64,000 nucleotides of DNA from Streptomyces hygroscopicus (GTDB taxonomy: Bacteria; Actinomycetota; Actinomycetes; Streptomycetales; Streptomycetaceae). Within the stretch, counting starts at the first letter, position 1. The number at the start of each line of letters is the position of its first letter. The stretch spans positions 4,526,001-4,590,000 of the forward strand of contig CP018627.1 in assembly GCA_002021875.1 (NCBI GenBank), given 5' to 3'. Under the pieces are notes generated by a model. It made no database searches, had not been told where the DNA came from, and worked only from the letters and a program-made list of their open reading frames with translations. Positions 3,474 through 25,153 of the stretch are shown piece by piece. The translations under genes were made by a program, and so were the position numbers.

Positions 3474-4439
3474 GTGCGTGCTGCCCGGCTCATCAAGATG
3501 GTGCTTCTGCTCCAGGCTCGACCCTCGATCACGGGGGCCGAGCTGGCGCGGGAGCTGGAGGTCTCGGAGCGCACCGTGACCCGGGACGCCGCCGCGCTCT
3601 CCGAGGCGGGGATCCCGGTCTACGCGGACCGGGGCCGGGCCGGGGGCTACCGGCTCATCGGCGGCTACCGCACCCGGCTGACCGGCCTCGGGCGGACCGA
3701 GGCCGAGGCGCTGTTCCTGTCCGGCGTCCCCTCCGCGCTGCGCGAGATGGGGCTCGCGGACGCCGCCTCCGCCGCCCGGCTGAAGGTGTCCGCCGCGCTG
3801 CTCCCGGAGCTGCGGGACGCCTCGCACACGGTGGCCCAGCGGTTCCATCTCGACGCCCCGGGCTGGTGGCGGGAGCCGGAGGCGCCGGAGCTGCTGCCGA
3901 GGATCGCCGACGCGGTCTGGGACGATCTGCGGATCACCGTGCGCTACCAGCGCCGGGACGCGGAGGTCCGGCGGGAGCTCGAACCGTACGGGCTCGTACT
4001 CAAGGCGGGCGTCTGGTATCTCGCGGCCCGCGCGGAGGGCGGCTTCCGGGTGTACCGGGTGGATCGCTTCGCGGCCGTCGAACCGGACGGCACCCACTTC
4101 ACCCGGGACGAGGACTTCGACCTGCCCGGCTTCTGGGAGGAGCGGGCCGATCAGTTCGTCCGCTCGATCCTGCGGGAGAAGGCCGTCGTACGGCTGACCC
4201 CGGCCGGTGCCCGGGGGCTGCCGCATGTCACGGACCGGGCGGCGGCCGAGGAGGCCGTACGCGAGGCCGGGGAGCCCGACGGGCAGGGGCGGCTCACCGT
4301 CACCCTGCCCATCGAGTCGTACGAGGTCGCCCTCGCCCAGCTGCTCGCGCTCGGCCCGGAGGCGGAGGTGCTGGGGCCGCCGAAGCTGCGAGCGCTCTTC
4401 GCCGAGGCGGCGCGCCGCACGGCGGAGCGCTACGAGTGA
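3474..4439 (+). CDS. WYL-domain HTH transcriptional regulator
   Basis: The 321-aa product starts with an N-terminal helix-turn-helix of the HTH_11/DeoR-like kind (LIKMVLLLQA, GAELARELEVSERTVTRD, about residues 6-40). A GGYRL wing follows, and a WYL-type sensor domain spans about residues 135-220, including WYLAARAEGGFRVYRVDR. The C-terminal part is typical of the family. The frame is open from 3261, but the first 70 codons there are repeat sequence, so I chose the GTG at 3474, which gives the usual start VRAARLIKM. WYL proteins sense ligands, often nucleic-acid or nucleotide derived; no target gene is evident. The next gene is convergent. Confidence 0.88.
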   Translation: MRAARLIKMVLLLQARPSITGAELARELEVSERTVTRDAAALSEAGIPVYADRGRAGGYRLIGGYRTRLTGLGRTEAEALFLSGVPSALREMGLADAASAARLKVSAALLPELRDASHTVAQRFHLDAPGWWREPEAPELLPRIADAVWDDLRITVRYQRRDAEVRRELEPYGLVLKAGVWYLAARAEGGFRVYRVDRFAAVEPDGTHFTRDEDFDLPGFWEERADQFVRSILREKAVVRLTPAGARGLPHVTDRAAAEEAVREAGEPDGQGRLTVTLPIESYEVALAQLLALGPEAEVLGPPKLRALFAEAARRTAERYE

Positions 4440-21079: not shown

Positions 21080-21670
21080 TCACGCGGTGGGGTTGACGGT
21101 CTGGGTGTCGGTGCCGGAGGACGGCAGGAAGCTGGTGTCGCCGGTGTAGAGGGCGACCACGGGGTGGGTGCCTACGCCCAGGGTGTTGAGGGACAGCGTC
21201 GCGGTGCCCGCCGACAGGGGCTGGACGAAGGCGCCGCCGCCGGAGCCTCCGATGATGAAGGTGACCGTCCCGGTCGGGACGCCCGCACCGGGTGCGACCG
21301 GGGTGACGGTGGCGGTGAACGTCACCGACTGCCCCAGCGTGGACGGATCCGGCGCCGAGGACACCGATGTGGTGGTCGCCGACTGGACGACGAGGATGAC
21401 GTTGGCGCCGGTGGACGGGGAGAAGTTGGTGTCACCGTTGTAGTTGGCGAGGACGGCGTGGGCGCCGACGCTCAGGCTGGGGACGGTGACCGAGGTGGTC
21501 CCGCCCGACAGCGTCCCAGTCACGGTGGGGCCGCCGGTGACGACGAAGGTGACGGTGCCGGTGGGAGTTCCGGCGCCGAGCGGGATGACGGTGGCGGTGA
21601 GGGTGACCGACTGTCCGAACGTCGCGGGTTGGGGTGAGACCGTGACCAGGGTGATCGTGGGGGTAGCCAT
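21080..21670 (-). CDS. Small Ig-like repeat protein, copy 1
   Basis: The 196-aa protein consists almost entirely of two bacterial Ig-like (Big_3_5-type) repeats. Each has P-x-FGQSVTLTATV, GTPTGTVTF, a Gly-rich loop, and NYNGDTNF or LYTGDTSF. Repeat 1 spans about residues 5-97 and repeat 2 about 100-193. No signal peptide, membrane segment or sorting motif is visible, which is odd because such repeats usually occur in secreted proteins. ATG 21670 has GGAGGGCC just upstream. A paralogue at 23528-24166 shares both coding style and a nearly identical leader. Function is unknown. Confidence 0.8.
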   Translation of the reverse strand: MATPTITLVTVSPQPATFGQSVTLTATVIPLGAGTPTGTVTFVVTGGPTVTGTLSGGTTSVTVPSLSVGAHAVLANYNGDTNFSPSTGANVILVVQSATTTSVSSAPDPSTLGQSVTFTATVTPVAPGAGVPTGTVTFIIGGSGGGAFVQPLSAGTATLSLNTLGVGTHPVVALYTGDTSFLPSSGTDTQTVNPTA

Positions 21671-21892
21671 GGTGGCCCTCCAAGTGGTGTGGGGTGGTGG
21701 GCCGTTGCTCGCCACGCATGCGGGAACAAGGCGCGGCGGCGCATCGGAGGCGAGGGGGTGCGCACTTACGGCGATCCACACGGGGACATCCCCGCGGCGC
21801 CGTCCCCCGGCAGATGTGGAACCCACCGGTCTGTAGCACCAGTAGGCGCGCGACTGGCCGCCACCGCCAGAGAGTTGACGCCCAATTACCCC
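21671..21892 (-). promoter_or_regulatory. Conserved leader/promoter of Ig-like gene 1
   Basis: This 5' region matches the one before the second Ig-like gene. A 114-bp core (21741-21854) aligns with 24239-24352 with, by my count, six substitutions and two single-base indels. The last 37 bp, distal to the gene, are identical. The core contains the hairpin ACTGGT-7 nt-ACCGGT (21825-21843). A further match, GGGGTAATT (coding strand), lies 29 bp beyond. The stretch is non-coding: the indels shift any reading frame. Confidence 0.7.
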
Positions 21893-22030
21893 GGATAGCG
21901 CAGCGCTCGACGGCCTTCCCCGCGCACACCATCCGCCTCGTGCGGCGCGCGTTCCGTGTGGTCGGGGCACCGCGTACGCACCGCGCACACGCGTGTGCTG
22001 GGGGCCTGCCGCGGGCGCGTCGGCCAGGGG

Positions 22031-23398
22031 TCAGCCGCCGTCGCCGAAGCCTCCCCCGAAGCCACCGCCGAATCCACCGCCGTCGCCGAAACCACCGCCG
22101 AAGTCGCCGCCCCCGGCGTCACCGCCGCCCCCGCCGTCGCCGAAGCCGCCGCCGAAGTCGCCGCCGAAGTCGCCGGTGTCGTAGCCGGGGCCGAGGGACC
22201 CGCCCAGCAGCGTGCCGATCAGCAGCCCGGGCAGCAGCATCGAGCCGTATCCGCCGAAGTACCCGCTCGCCCAGGGCCCGTAGGCCGGACCGGCCTCCCA
22301 GTACGGGCGTCGCCGGTCGACGCCGACCGGGACGGTGCGGGCGTCCGGATCGAGGCCGTCGTCGATGCGGGTGGCGTCCGCGGCGCAGGCCGGGACGGAG
22401 CGCTGGGTGCCGCCCGAGGGCGCCCACGGGACGTCCCGGACCGACGGGCCGTGGCGCGGGTCGAAGAAGCACGGCGGGCGGCGCTCGGGCAGCGGCCCGC
22501 CCTCGCGGCGGGCATCGAGCACCGCCAGCGCGAAGCGGCCCTCCTCCAGCGCCTCGGTCACCGGCCGTACGTCCGCGGGGCCCCGGGCGGCGGCCGACTT
22601 GGCCTTCGCCTCCTCGTAGGCGTCCAGGGCGCGGCCGTAGTCGTCCGCCATCTCGGGGGTGGACGCCGGGTCGGCCGGGTCGAAGCCGGTCCGGCTGAGC
22701 TTCTCGCCGTACGCGGTGATGTCCTCCTCGACCGCGCCACGCACCTGCTCCAGCTCGGCCCGCTCGCGCTCGCGGCGCTGCTTGCGGGTGCGCCGCAGCA
22801 GGTAGAGACCGCCTCCGCCGACGGCGGCCAGAATGATCAGCACCACCACGGTGTCCCCCACCGACAGACCGGTGGAGTCCCGCGCGCCCTGGTCGCCGCC
22901 GGTCCCCTGGCCGCCCCGGTCGTGGGTCGCCTTGGCCGCGTCGGTCACGAAGCCGTCCAGGACCGCCGCGAGGTCGCGGGGGTGCTGCCGCAGGTTCTGC
23001 GCCGCCAGCGCCTGCGAGGTGCGTCCCGGCAGCACCGAGGTGTCGGAGGCCGCCCCGAAGGAGGAGCCGAGCGCCACCGCGTAGATGCCGGGACGGTCGA
23101 CGGCGGCCCGCAGCCGCCCGAAGACGCGCTCGCCTCCGTACGCGGGATTGTCCGGCAGGACGGCGACGTAGACGGGCACGCCCGCCTCACGGATATGCGC
23201 CACCAAGCGGCGCGCCTGTCCGGCGCTCAGTGCGTCGGAGGCGCCGGGATCGACGTATACGGGGCTGTGCCGCAACGCCTTGCCGATCTTGTTCACATCC
23301 GTTTCGGCACGAGCGCCCCCGGCGGTGAGCAGCACCGCCGTCAGAGCGACGAGGACGGCCAGCAGCAGCGCGCCCCATCGCGGCGTCTTGACGGACAC
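22031..23398 (-). CDS. TPM-domain membrane protein with glycine-rich tail
   Basis: The 455-aa protein has an N-terminal signal sequence (about 1-31, ending GGARA). An extracytoplasmic domain resembling the TPM_phosphatase fold follows (about 32-165, with IREAGVPVYVAVLPD), then a spacer and one membrane helix (about 180-200, VVVLIILAAVGGGGLYLL). Next comes a basic and coiled-coil-like cytoplasmic region, and the last 50 residues are repeats of GGGFGDGG. Such proteins are common in Streptomyces; their role is unproven. GTG 23398 overlaps a GAGGT sequence. It sits between two Ig-like paralogues in the same direction. Confidence 0.8.
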   Translation of the reverse strand: MSVKTPRWGALLLAVLVALTAVLLTAGGARAETDVNKIGKALRHSPVYVDPGASDALSAGQARRLVAHIREAGVPVYVAVLPDNPAYGGERVFGRLRAAVDRPGIYAVALGSSFGAASDTSVLPGRTSQALAAQNLRQHPRDLAAVLDGFVTDAAKATHDRGGQGTGGDQGARDSTGLSVGDTVVVLIILAAVGGGGLYLLRRTRKQRRERERAELEQVRGAVEEDITAYGEKLSRTGFDPADPASTPEMADDYGRALDAYEEAKAKSAAARGPADVRPVTEALEEGRFALAVLDARREGGPLPERRPPCFFDPRHGPSVRDVPWAPSGGTQRSVPACAADATRIDDGLDPDARTVPVGVDRRRPYWEAGPAYGPWASGYFGGYGSMLLPGLLIGTLLGGSLGPGYDTGDFGGDFGGGFGDGGGGGDAGGGDFGGGFGDGGGFGGGFGGGFGDGG

Positions 23399-23475
23399 AC
23401 CTCACATTTACCCGCATAAGGGTCACTCATGCGTGGATCCGGCTTTCCGCGCGGGTCGACGTCCGACGTGCGTGG

Positions 23476-23517
23476 CTGGGCCCCGCCACTGCCCCTTTCG
23501 GCGGTGGCGGGGCCCAG
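23476..23517. terminator. Strong hairpin between Ig-like gene 2 and the TPM gene
   Basis: CTGGGCCCCGCCAC (23476-23489) pairs perfectly with GTGGCGGGGCCCAG (23504-23517); GCC and GGC inside the loop extend the stem. It lies 11 bp after the stop of the Ig-like gene at 23528 (minus strand), so that gene and the TPM gene should be separate transcripts. Confidence 0.88.
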
Positions 23518-23527
23518 TGCTGTGGGA

Positions 23528-24166
23528 TCAGCTCACAGTGGTGGTCACCGTGCCGCTCTCCGGCTCGGTGACGACCTGGGTGTACTCGGAGACGCCGGAG
23601 GCGCCGAAATTGGCGTCCCCCGCGTAGAAGGCGTCGACGTCCCAGTTGCCTGCCGACAGCGGCACTTCGACGAAGGCGAATCCATTGGTGTCCACGGTGG
23701 TGTTGATGGTGATCGTGCCCACACCGTTGGTGAGGGTGAAGGTGACCGTGCCCGTCGGGGTGCCGTCGCCGGGCGGGATGGCTTCCACGAAGGCGACGAA
23801 GTCGACGAGTGTGCCCGCCTCGGACGGGTTGGGGTTGGAGCTGATCGTGGTCCTGGAGTTCGCGGGGTTCACCACCTGCGTGAGCGGCGCCGACGTCGAC
23901 GTGGCGAAGTTGGTGTCACCGTTGTAGGTGGCGGTCACGGTGTGCGACCCCGCGCCCGGGCCGCTGGTGATGAACGTCGCCGTGCCGCCCGTCAGCGGCT
24001 GGGTGAACGTGCCCCCGCCCGTACCGCCGATCACGAAGGTGACCGAACCGGTCGGGGTGCCGGTCGCGGGCGGGTGCGGCGTGACCGTGGCGGTGAGCGT
24101 GACCGACTGCCCGGAGACCGCGGGATTGGGTGACGCCGCGACCAGGGTGACAGTGGGTGAAGCCAT
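23528..24166 (-). CDS. Small Ig-like repeat protein, copy 2
   Basis: A 212-aa paralogue of the protein at 21080-21670. The first repeat (about 5-100) is close to copy 1: MASPTVTLVAASPNP, SGQSVTLTATVTP, TGTPTGSVTF and ATYNGDTNF. The second repeat (about 103-205) is more diverged, with GDGTPTGTVTFTL and AFYAGDANF. No signal peptide is visible. The start ATG has GGAGGGCC upstream as in copy 1, and the 5' region is almost the same sequence. A tandem duplication of gene plus leader with later insertion or retention of the TPM gene between the copies would explain this. Confidence 0.8.
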   Translation of the reverse strand: MASPTVTLVAASPNPAVSGQSVTLTATVTPHPPATGTPTGSVTFVIGGTGGGTFTQPLTGGTATFITSGPGAGSHTVTATYNGDTNFATSTSAPLTQVVNPANSRTTISSNPNPSEAGTLVDFVAFVEAIPPGDGTPTGTVTFTLTNGVGTITINTTVDTNGFAFVEVPLSAGNWDVDAFYAGDANFGASGVSEYTQVVTEPESGTVTTTVS

Positions 24167-24389
24167 GACGGGCCCTCCAAATGGCTTGGAATGGTGGGCC
24201 GTTACTCGCCACGCGCGACTGCGAGCGCGCAGGGCGGCGCATCGGAGGCCAGGGGTGCGCACCTACGGCGATCCGCACGGGAACATCCCCCGCGTCGCCG
24301 TCCCCCGGCAGATGGGGAACCCACCGGTCTGTAGCACCAGTAGGCGCGCGACACACCCCCAACGCCAGGGAAACACCCCGAATTACCCC
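24167..24389 (-). promoter_or_regulatory. Conserved leader/promoter of Ig-like gene 2
   Basis: Second copy of the leader described for Ig-like gene 1. The 114-bp core is at 24239-24352, the hairpin ACTGGT-GCTACAG-ACCGGT (coding strand) at 24323-24341, and the outer GGGGTAATT match at 24381-24389. The 28-29 bp between core and outer match differ in sequence but not length, as in a promoter spacer. The remainder of the gap to 24514 shows no gene. Confidence 0.7.
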
Positions 24390-24514
24390 ATACAGCCCAG
24401 CGCCCACCTCTTCCCCCAGCGCACCCCCCACCTCGCGCACGGCGCGCGCCGCCTCTCCTCAACTCCCCGCGCACGCGTGGCGCGCGGAGGGTGCCGCCGC
24501 GTCAGAGGGCGCGG

Positions 24515-25153
24515 CTAGTCCGTGCGGCCGGTCGCGGCGACGGTGACGCCAAGGCCGATCATGGAGAGTCCGCCGACGCCGCCGACCAGGGCGAGGCGTC
24601 TCGGTGAGCGGGCGAACCAGGTGCGGGCGGTGGCCGCGGCCAGGCCCCATACGCTGTCGGAGACCACCGCGATGGCGTTGAAGATCAGGCCGAGGAGCAG
24701 CATCTGCAGCGCGACATGCCCCTGGTCACGGTCGACGAACTGGGGCAGTACGGCGGCGAAGAACACGATCGTCTTGGGGTTGGCCACCCCGACCGCGAAC
24801 CCCTCCCACAGGGTGCGCAGGCCCCCGCGGGCGGGGCCGTCGCCGGTGAAGGCGGCGTGCAGCGAGCGGCGCTGCCGCACCGCCTTGACGCCCAGGTGGA
24901 CCAGATACGCGGCGCCCACCAGCTTCAGCGTGGTGAAGACGACGGCCGAGCGCTCCACCACGGACCCGACGCCCAGCGCCACGGCCACGACCAGCACATA
25001 CGCCCCGAGCGTATTGCCGATGACCGTGGTCAGCGCCGCGCGGCGGCCCTGGGCCAGTGCCCGGCCGACCACGAAGAGCACGCTGGGGCCGGGGATCACG
25101 ATCAGCAGAAAGGACATGGCCGCGAAGGCGAGCAGCCGGTCGGTGGACACCAT
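24515..25153 (-). CDS. LysE-family amino acid exporter
   Basis: A 212-aa membrane exporter of the LysE/RhtB family, the standard length, with about six hydrophobic segments. The N-terminal signature IPGPSVLFVVGRALAQGRR (about 18-36) with the family's PGP motif is present, then GNTLGAYVLV, YLVHLGVKAVR and FAVGVANPKTIVFFAAVLPQFV, the conserved NPK segment. Family members export lysine, arginine, homoserine, threonine or similar; the substrate cannot be told. The frame is open well upstream but only MVSTDRLLAF matches the family start. Confidence 0.92.
   Translation of the reverse strand: MVSTDRLLAFAAMSFLLIVIPGPSVLFVVGRALAQGRRAALTTVIGNTLGAYVLVVAVALGVGSVVERSAVVFTTLKLVGAAYLVHLGVKAVRQRRSLHAAFTGDGPARGGLRTLWEGFAVGVANPKTIVFFAAVLPQFVDRDQGHVALQMLLLGLIFNAIAVVSDSVWGLAAATARTWFARSPRRLALVGGVGGLSMIGLGVTVAATGRTD

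Follow-up and report, generated by a model that had tools for sequence, protein, structure and literature searches.

A conserved leader with a promoter-like 5' block and a candidate structured 3' RNA upstream of Ig-like and other repeat-protein genes in Streptomyces

Two Ig-like genes are found on the minus strand within the stretch of DNA analysed here (the window), a 64-kb piece of the 12.0-Mb Streptomyces hygroscopicus chromosome, and the sequences just upstream of them are strikingly alike. The question is whether this resemblance is simply what is left of a duplication or whether the leaders have a function of their own, and if so whether as DNA or as RNA. The genes (21080..21670, 196 aa, and 23528..24166, 212 aa, with start codons at 21670 and 24166) each encode a protein with two Big_3_5 stretches, in agreement with the two Ig-like domains proposed in a first-pass annotation made from the sequence, and by eye without a signal peptide. 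The near-identity of the leaders reported there is borne out as well: their alignment includes a run of 37 identical bases as well as GGGGTAATT, with one-base gaps on both sides of the core, as the indels claimed for it imply. As direct repeats, the pair breaks up into several ungapped stretches (84 nt at 90%, 39 nt at 92%, and 44 nt at 86%), and in a blastn search of the same genome leader 1 retrieves leader 2 with E=3.2e-57. Between the two genes is a frame for a 455-aa protein (22031-23398, minus strand), which by eye has a signal sequence, a membrane segment, and a Gly/Asp/Phe-rich C-terminal repeat, and which matches no Pfam family at E≤0.01.

Recent duplication of an Ig-like gene together with a leader of no special function would explain two closely similar leaders 2.5 kb apart, and was the alternative set down in the first-pass annotation, with the core confined to this locus. 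The distribution of the leader contradicts this and refutes it as a full explanation, leaving it exceedingly improbable: diverged leaders are located before unrelated gene families in many genomes. By blastn there is a third copy in the same genome, at 11.47 Mb and 6.9 Mb away, upstream of a related Ig-like gene (E=3.6e-39). A profile trained on 62 of the 88 leaders in the discovery set (R3) has only two matches within the window and 12 at E≤1e-3 in the genome as a whole. Each of the six Big_3_5 loci in this genome has one leader upstream. Three of the other six leaders precede IPT/TIG-domain genes, one of these with an ice-binding-like domain; one leader each is found before a DUF1360 gene and, by eye, before a transposase-like frame (G000:C1:11197476, minus strand, L228). 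At another locus (L323:2681-2788, minus strand) the leader copy is followed by an annotated IS6 transposase, and in both cases an insertion element seems to have come between leader and gene. The DUF1360-like small proteins, found behind leader L231 (G000:C1:8109408, minus strand; by Pfam) and leader L148 (by eye), are unlike the repeat proteins elsewhere.

Twenty downstream proteins were chosen to represent the kinds seen rather than as a random sample. Ten had TIG and/or Big_3_5 domains, four were beta-propeller-like, and there was one acyltransferase and one DUF1360 protein; the remaining four matched no Pfam family at E≤0.001. The proposed tie to Ig-like genes thus holds in part, in that the leader recurs ahead of such genes in many genomes, but it is not specific to two-domain Ig-like genes, since IPT/TIG, beta-propeller, acyltransferase, and further genes have it upstream too.

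The core is matched exactly in 13 stretches of named Streptomyces genomes, including S. violaceusniger, S. hygroscopicus, and S. iranensis, and at E≤1e-6 leader 1 has blastn matches in 12/392 Streptomyces genomes, its own included. Profile searches extended this range; leaders used for training match their own profile by construction, and the profile E-values are rough. A sequence-only profile of 26 leaders (R1) matched 38/392 Streptomyces genomes at E≤0.01, and one of 36 leaders (R2) matched 31/391 genomes of the order at E≤1e-3, tallies that still contain non-leader matches (for R2, at least two genomes are counted through matches unlike leaders). The better R1 matches are divergent leaders before other Ig-like genes. 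Several of the weak ones proved to be coding sequence and were left out of further analysis: seven (L078, L082, L083, L085-L087, L091) share one common reading frame, which we take to be that of glycine dehydrogenase. L084 from R1 and L137 and L138 from R2 were removed as unlike leaders. R2 extends the family to IPT/TIG genes and others, and R3 matched 52/392 Streptomyces genomes at E≤1e-5. Over the class, R3 matched 2/276 genomes, the one considered here and another of its genus. Among 38 chosen genomes, 29 had at least one R3 match at E≤1e-3, and the richest had 15 copies; the nine without include eight Streptomyces added as negatives, and two genomes from another family in the order have two matches each. 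In scans of more than 40 genomes only 9-13 candidates were scored in each, which makes the copy numbers from such scans minimum values.

Some copies are on plasmids. The leader is found at or just before annotated IPT/TIG genes on plasmids of Streptomyces scopuliridis (three records, one of which was inspected) and Streptomyces sp. NBC_00984; no plasmid match was obtained with leader 1 as query. A phage origin was considered and dropped: the class I core (that of the window's leaders) was found in none of the viral contigs, one IPT/TIG-class leader had no match among phage records, and the single viral-contig match to the D palindrome (16 bits, block D only) looks like chance. Some copies are closely paired, either in the same orientation with starts about 265 nt apart (G026:C10:23079/23346, G298:C7:67905/68172, G267:C94:9341/9606) or divergently, about 100 nt apart (G183:C4:55871(-)/56077(+)).

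The R3 matches in the window cover conserved blocks A to E, at 21800..21906 in leader 1 (59.4 bits) and 24298..24403 in leader 2 (53.2 bits), both on the minus strand like all features of the two window leaders given below. The position of the leaders, upstream of a coding gene and on its sense strand, is consistent with a 5' UTR. Start codons chosen automatically for part of 168 loci, in a search ending 340 nt after the block D anchor, were mostly 90-340 nt past that anchor, with some at 41-87 nt. In L242, L243, L246, L250, and L270 the frame starts 41-55 nt past it, leaving little room for a downstream helix partner. In L324 (4010-4116) the annotated start of an IPT/TIG CDS is at 4124, just past block E, so either the public start codon may be misplaced or the leader truncated.

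A conserved upstream small ORF encoding a leader peptide could also keep such a sequence constant. Some members do have an open frame over the core, and in class II the leaders L019, L020, L021, and L070 could encode similar peptides (APTxAxDRRVAxLAxxxG) overlapping it. Differences among these four show no third-codon-position bias by eye, however, and in the other classes every frame is broken by stops and indels, so this explanation is very unlikely.

The 5' half of the element, blocks A-C, is rigidly spaced. A TTG/TGG block starts 24 or 25 nt before a TTACT block in 145 of the 150 sequences (out of 162) where both were found, and a GGGTGA-like block 46 or 47 nt before TTACT in 86/98 sequences with such a block. 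These figures are an upper view of the rigidity, because the two blocks were sought only within 12 and 17 nt of their expected places and the profiles favour fixed spacing. No supported pairing or fold was found for blocks A-C. A scan of 21400-24600 for a sigma-70-type promoter (TTGACA, 16-18 nt, TATAAT) found none, and therefore the role of the 5' half is one that we infer: it resembles DNA to which a protein binds, and a promoter whose start is just after TTACT would be the simplest case. Fixed spacing of short conserved blocks is also a feature of sigma-specific Streptomyces promoters, from which the leader differs in having no sigma-70-type match; to our knowledge, its 5' blocks do not fit the consensus of other Streptomyces sigma factors either.

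The whole leader might then act only as DNA, as a long promoter/operator for a sigma factor and a regulator, with a passive 5' UTR downstream. The spacing and the unfolded 5' half are in keeping with this, as is the observation that across classes sequence is kept rather than structure; the empty sigma-70-type scan is not. What weighs most against it is compensatory pairing of helices P2 and P3 in two sequence sets (below), which would be unexpected in a passive UTR, and overall we consider it unlikely that DNA is the whole story. The first-pass annotation offered a structured 5'-UTR or a regulator-specific promoter as alternatives, and each of these guesses fits one half of the element.

The hairpin that it named, ACTGGT-GCTACAG-ACCGGT in block C, is present in the leaders as sequence, and was rejected as the structural core, since it never changes among near relatives and disappears in distant ones. 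It does not vary in any of 20 class I rows; when three distant rows were added, one pair was broken in 2/26 rows and another was outside the predicted fold. In a diverse alignment of 36 sequences the hairpin is missing from the RNAalifold structure, which has just four pairs, all elsewhere. The proposal of RNA structure thus survives through compensatory pairing in the 3' half, and not through this hairpin. Two further results tell against RNA structure: column-wise covariation against a tree-based null gave no pair below E=0.1 for blocks A-E, and windowed folding of the same blocks showed little structure. A reason for this emerged from the sequence after block E, where its partner, block F, is located. 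For covariation, removal of near-duplicates left 94 of 105 rows, from which a further eight, six, or seven were dropped as diverged or badly aligned; some of these do precede Ig-like genes.

Block E (e.g., CCUCU-CC-GGGGG) is complementary to the downstream block F (CCCCC-GU-AGAGG), and the two change together between classes. Pairing within each sequence was tested against pairings in which one partner came from another sequence; the permutations take sequences as unrelated, and controls were drawn from the same sequences. In the discovery set, the outer strand of P2 gave z=-5.75 (22 representatives) and P3 gave z=-7.19 (25 representatives), each with 0/20000 permutations as good, while none of five control pairings was significant (the nearest at 1541/20000). 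Block F could be placed by pattern in only 28/88 discovery and 12/70 new sequences, and pattern-free tests of E against downstream sequence avoid selection on this basis. Over all 88 sequences these gave a mean z of -0.93 for E, compared with -0.38 for D, 0.23 for C, and -0.08 to 0.04 for three controls. An independent set was obtained from 80 newly fetched loci, 70 of which were not near-duplicates of the first set and 57 non-redundant. Here, with the partner placed without a pattern, E and downstream sequence gave z=-5.41 (0/20000, n=57) and the P3 strand z=-3.91 (3/20000, n=57). Block D and downstream sequence gave z=-0.80 (4199/20000), C2 gave 0.46 and A 0.26, and E with sequence further downstream gave 0.84. 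As controls, E with upstream sequence gave z=-1.44 and block B with downstream sequence z=-2.39 (197/20000), which is unexplained. In the new pattern-placed sequences P2 was reached by 7/20000 permutations (11 representatives) and P3 by 956/20000 (12 sequences). The predicted helices P2 and P3 in the 3' half are thus shown by compensatory change in two sequence sets.

In leader 1, the predicted P2 pairs CAUC-n4-GGGGG at 21804..21816 with CCCCC-n8-GAUG at 21742..21758, enclosing a P3 stem-loop at 21768..21803 (ACGGCG ... CGCCGU and an inner stem). In leader 2 the corresponding P2 strands are at 24302..24314 and 24240..24255 (CCCC ... GAUG), with P3 at 24265..24301; the 5' strands of P2 were placed by hand from alignment A6 in both. 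Folded alone, leader 1 is no more stable than shuffled sequences (z=0.43) and leader 2 slightly more so (z=-1.68, equalled by 12/200 shuffles). Within the window's class, 94.8% of cells are paired in the structure made up of P2, P3, and the two downstream hairpins described below (P4 and the Shine-Dalgarno hairpin); sliding this structure along the alignment lowers the figure to 37-56%. Two-sided change there is no greater than in shuffles (196/500 reach it); because the class shows almost none, the fold of the two window leaders rests on the wider family.

Other pairings were less consistent. A pseudoknot between D and F1 (253/20000 in the discovery set, 5590/20000 in the new pattern-placed sequences) is suggestive only. 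An outer helix P1, between C2 and the tail after F, is convincing by eye in L126, L130, and L182 and was rejected as not significant over either set. A C1-D3 helix reached z=-4.56 for an overlapping window in one scan and failed in an anchored test. The same scan gave z=-5.03 for a local hairpin at block E, which would compete with P2.

Nearer the start codon, 94 non-redundant leaders with a placed start show a stem-loop signal between -80 and -35 (mean z=-0.92, t=-5.6, 29% below -1.5). The stem-loop at this family-wide position, P4, is at 21710..21738 in leader 1, upstream of the ribosome binding site, and at 24207..24236 in leader 2. It is followed in leader 1 by a hairpin of GGCCCACC with GGAGGGCC (21674..21703), which would pair the Shine-Dalgarno sequence, and in leader 2 by its counterpart (24171..24200). 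All 7/7 pairs of this hairpin are invariant in class I, so it yields no covariation evidence. There is little sign of terminators: TTTT occurs in the last 70 nt of 2/94 leaders, against 5/94 in an upstream control stretch, and no intrinsic terminator (GC-rich hairpin and U-tract) was found in 21400-24600. Control of translation start is suggested by the position of P4, the Shine-Dalgarno hairpin in the window's class, and the scarcity of U-tracts.

Taken together, each leader is probably a two-part cis-regulatory element, with a promoter- or operator-like 5' block and a structured, translation-controlling 3' RNA. Blocks A-C, about 65 bp, would most likely serve as a promoter or operator belonging to that copy alone, with transcription beginning close to TTACT or shortly after it and the RNA starting near block D. 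Blocks D-F, once transcribed, would form the long-range helix P2 closing the variable domain P3; P4 would come next, about 35-80 nt before the start codon, and the whole may control translation start of the downstream repeat-protein gene.

This proposed RNA half has much in common with riboswitches and other structured 5'-leader RNAs: a sense-strand position upstream of genes, a conserved core, compensatory helices, and a stem-loop before the ribosome binding site. It differs from them in having no intrinsic terminator seen and no known ligand, in being fused to a rigidly spaced, unfolded upstream block, and in often preceding genes for structural repeat proteins rather than metabolic ones. 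A riboswitch proper, in which blocks C-F would be an aptamer for a small molecule or ion and P4 with the Shine-Dalgarno hairpin the expression platform, would suit these likenesses, the many copies, and the R3 matches that follow each other at about 265 nt in a shared orientation. The genes give no clue to a ligand, however, most of them looking structural, and the D-F1 pseudoknot that would define the pocket is weak, so that this reading is doubtful. A tentative variant, for which we hold a modest degree of belief, is an orphan riboswitch-like RNA class that would coordinate signal-less and secreted beta-repeat proteins (Ig-like, IPT/TIG, beta-propeller, ice-binding-like), with a promoter block for each copy and a switch between the block E hairpin and long-range P2; its known range so far is a minority of Streptomyces genomes plus two from elsewhere in the order.

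For the window and eight relatives, all of the Rfam 15 matches listed were far below gathering scores. No description of this leader was found in the literature searched, including text from PMC2864571, PMC11109978, and PMC11062931. The dauA, livJ, pntA, and asfR motifs are likewise candidate structured leaders, restricted wholly or mainly to Streptomyces (PMC11109978); the downstream genes given for them there differ from those seen here, being for transport, transhydrogenase, and a regulator, and the main text of that paper mentions neither TIG nor IPT. We rate the leader as a new family of structured leaders whose general kind is known, unusual in its two-part build and gene set.

Repeat-protein genes that are scattered over Streptomyces chromosomes with no assigned role are joined by their leaders as one candidate regulon, the regulation and role of their products become directly testable, and a genus of antibiotic producers gains a further structured RNA for study. 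Arrangements within the family vary. In the class found with beta-propeller genes (L271, L272, L276-L278, L319), blocks D and E appear by eye to be followed directly by their complement, in a hairpin of about 15 bp.
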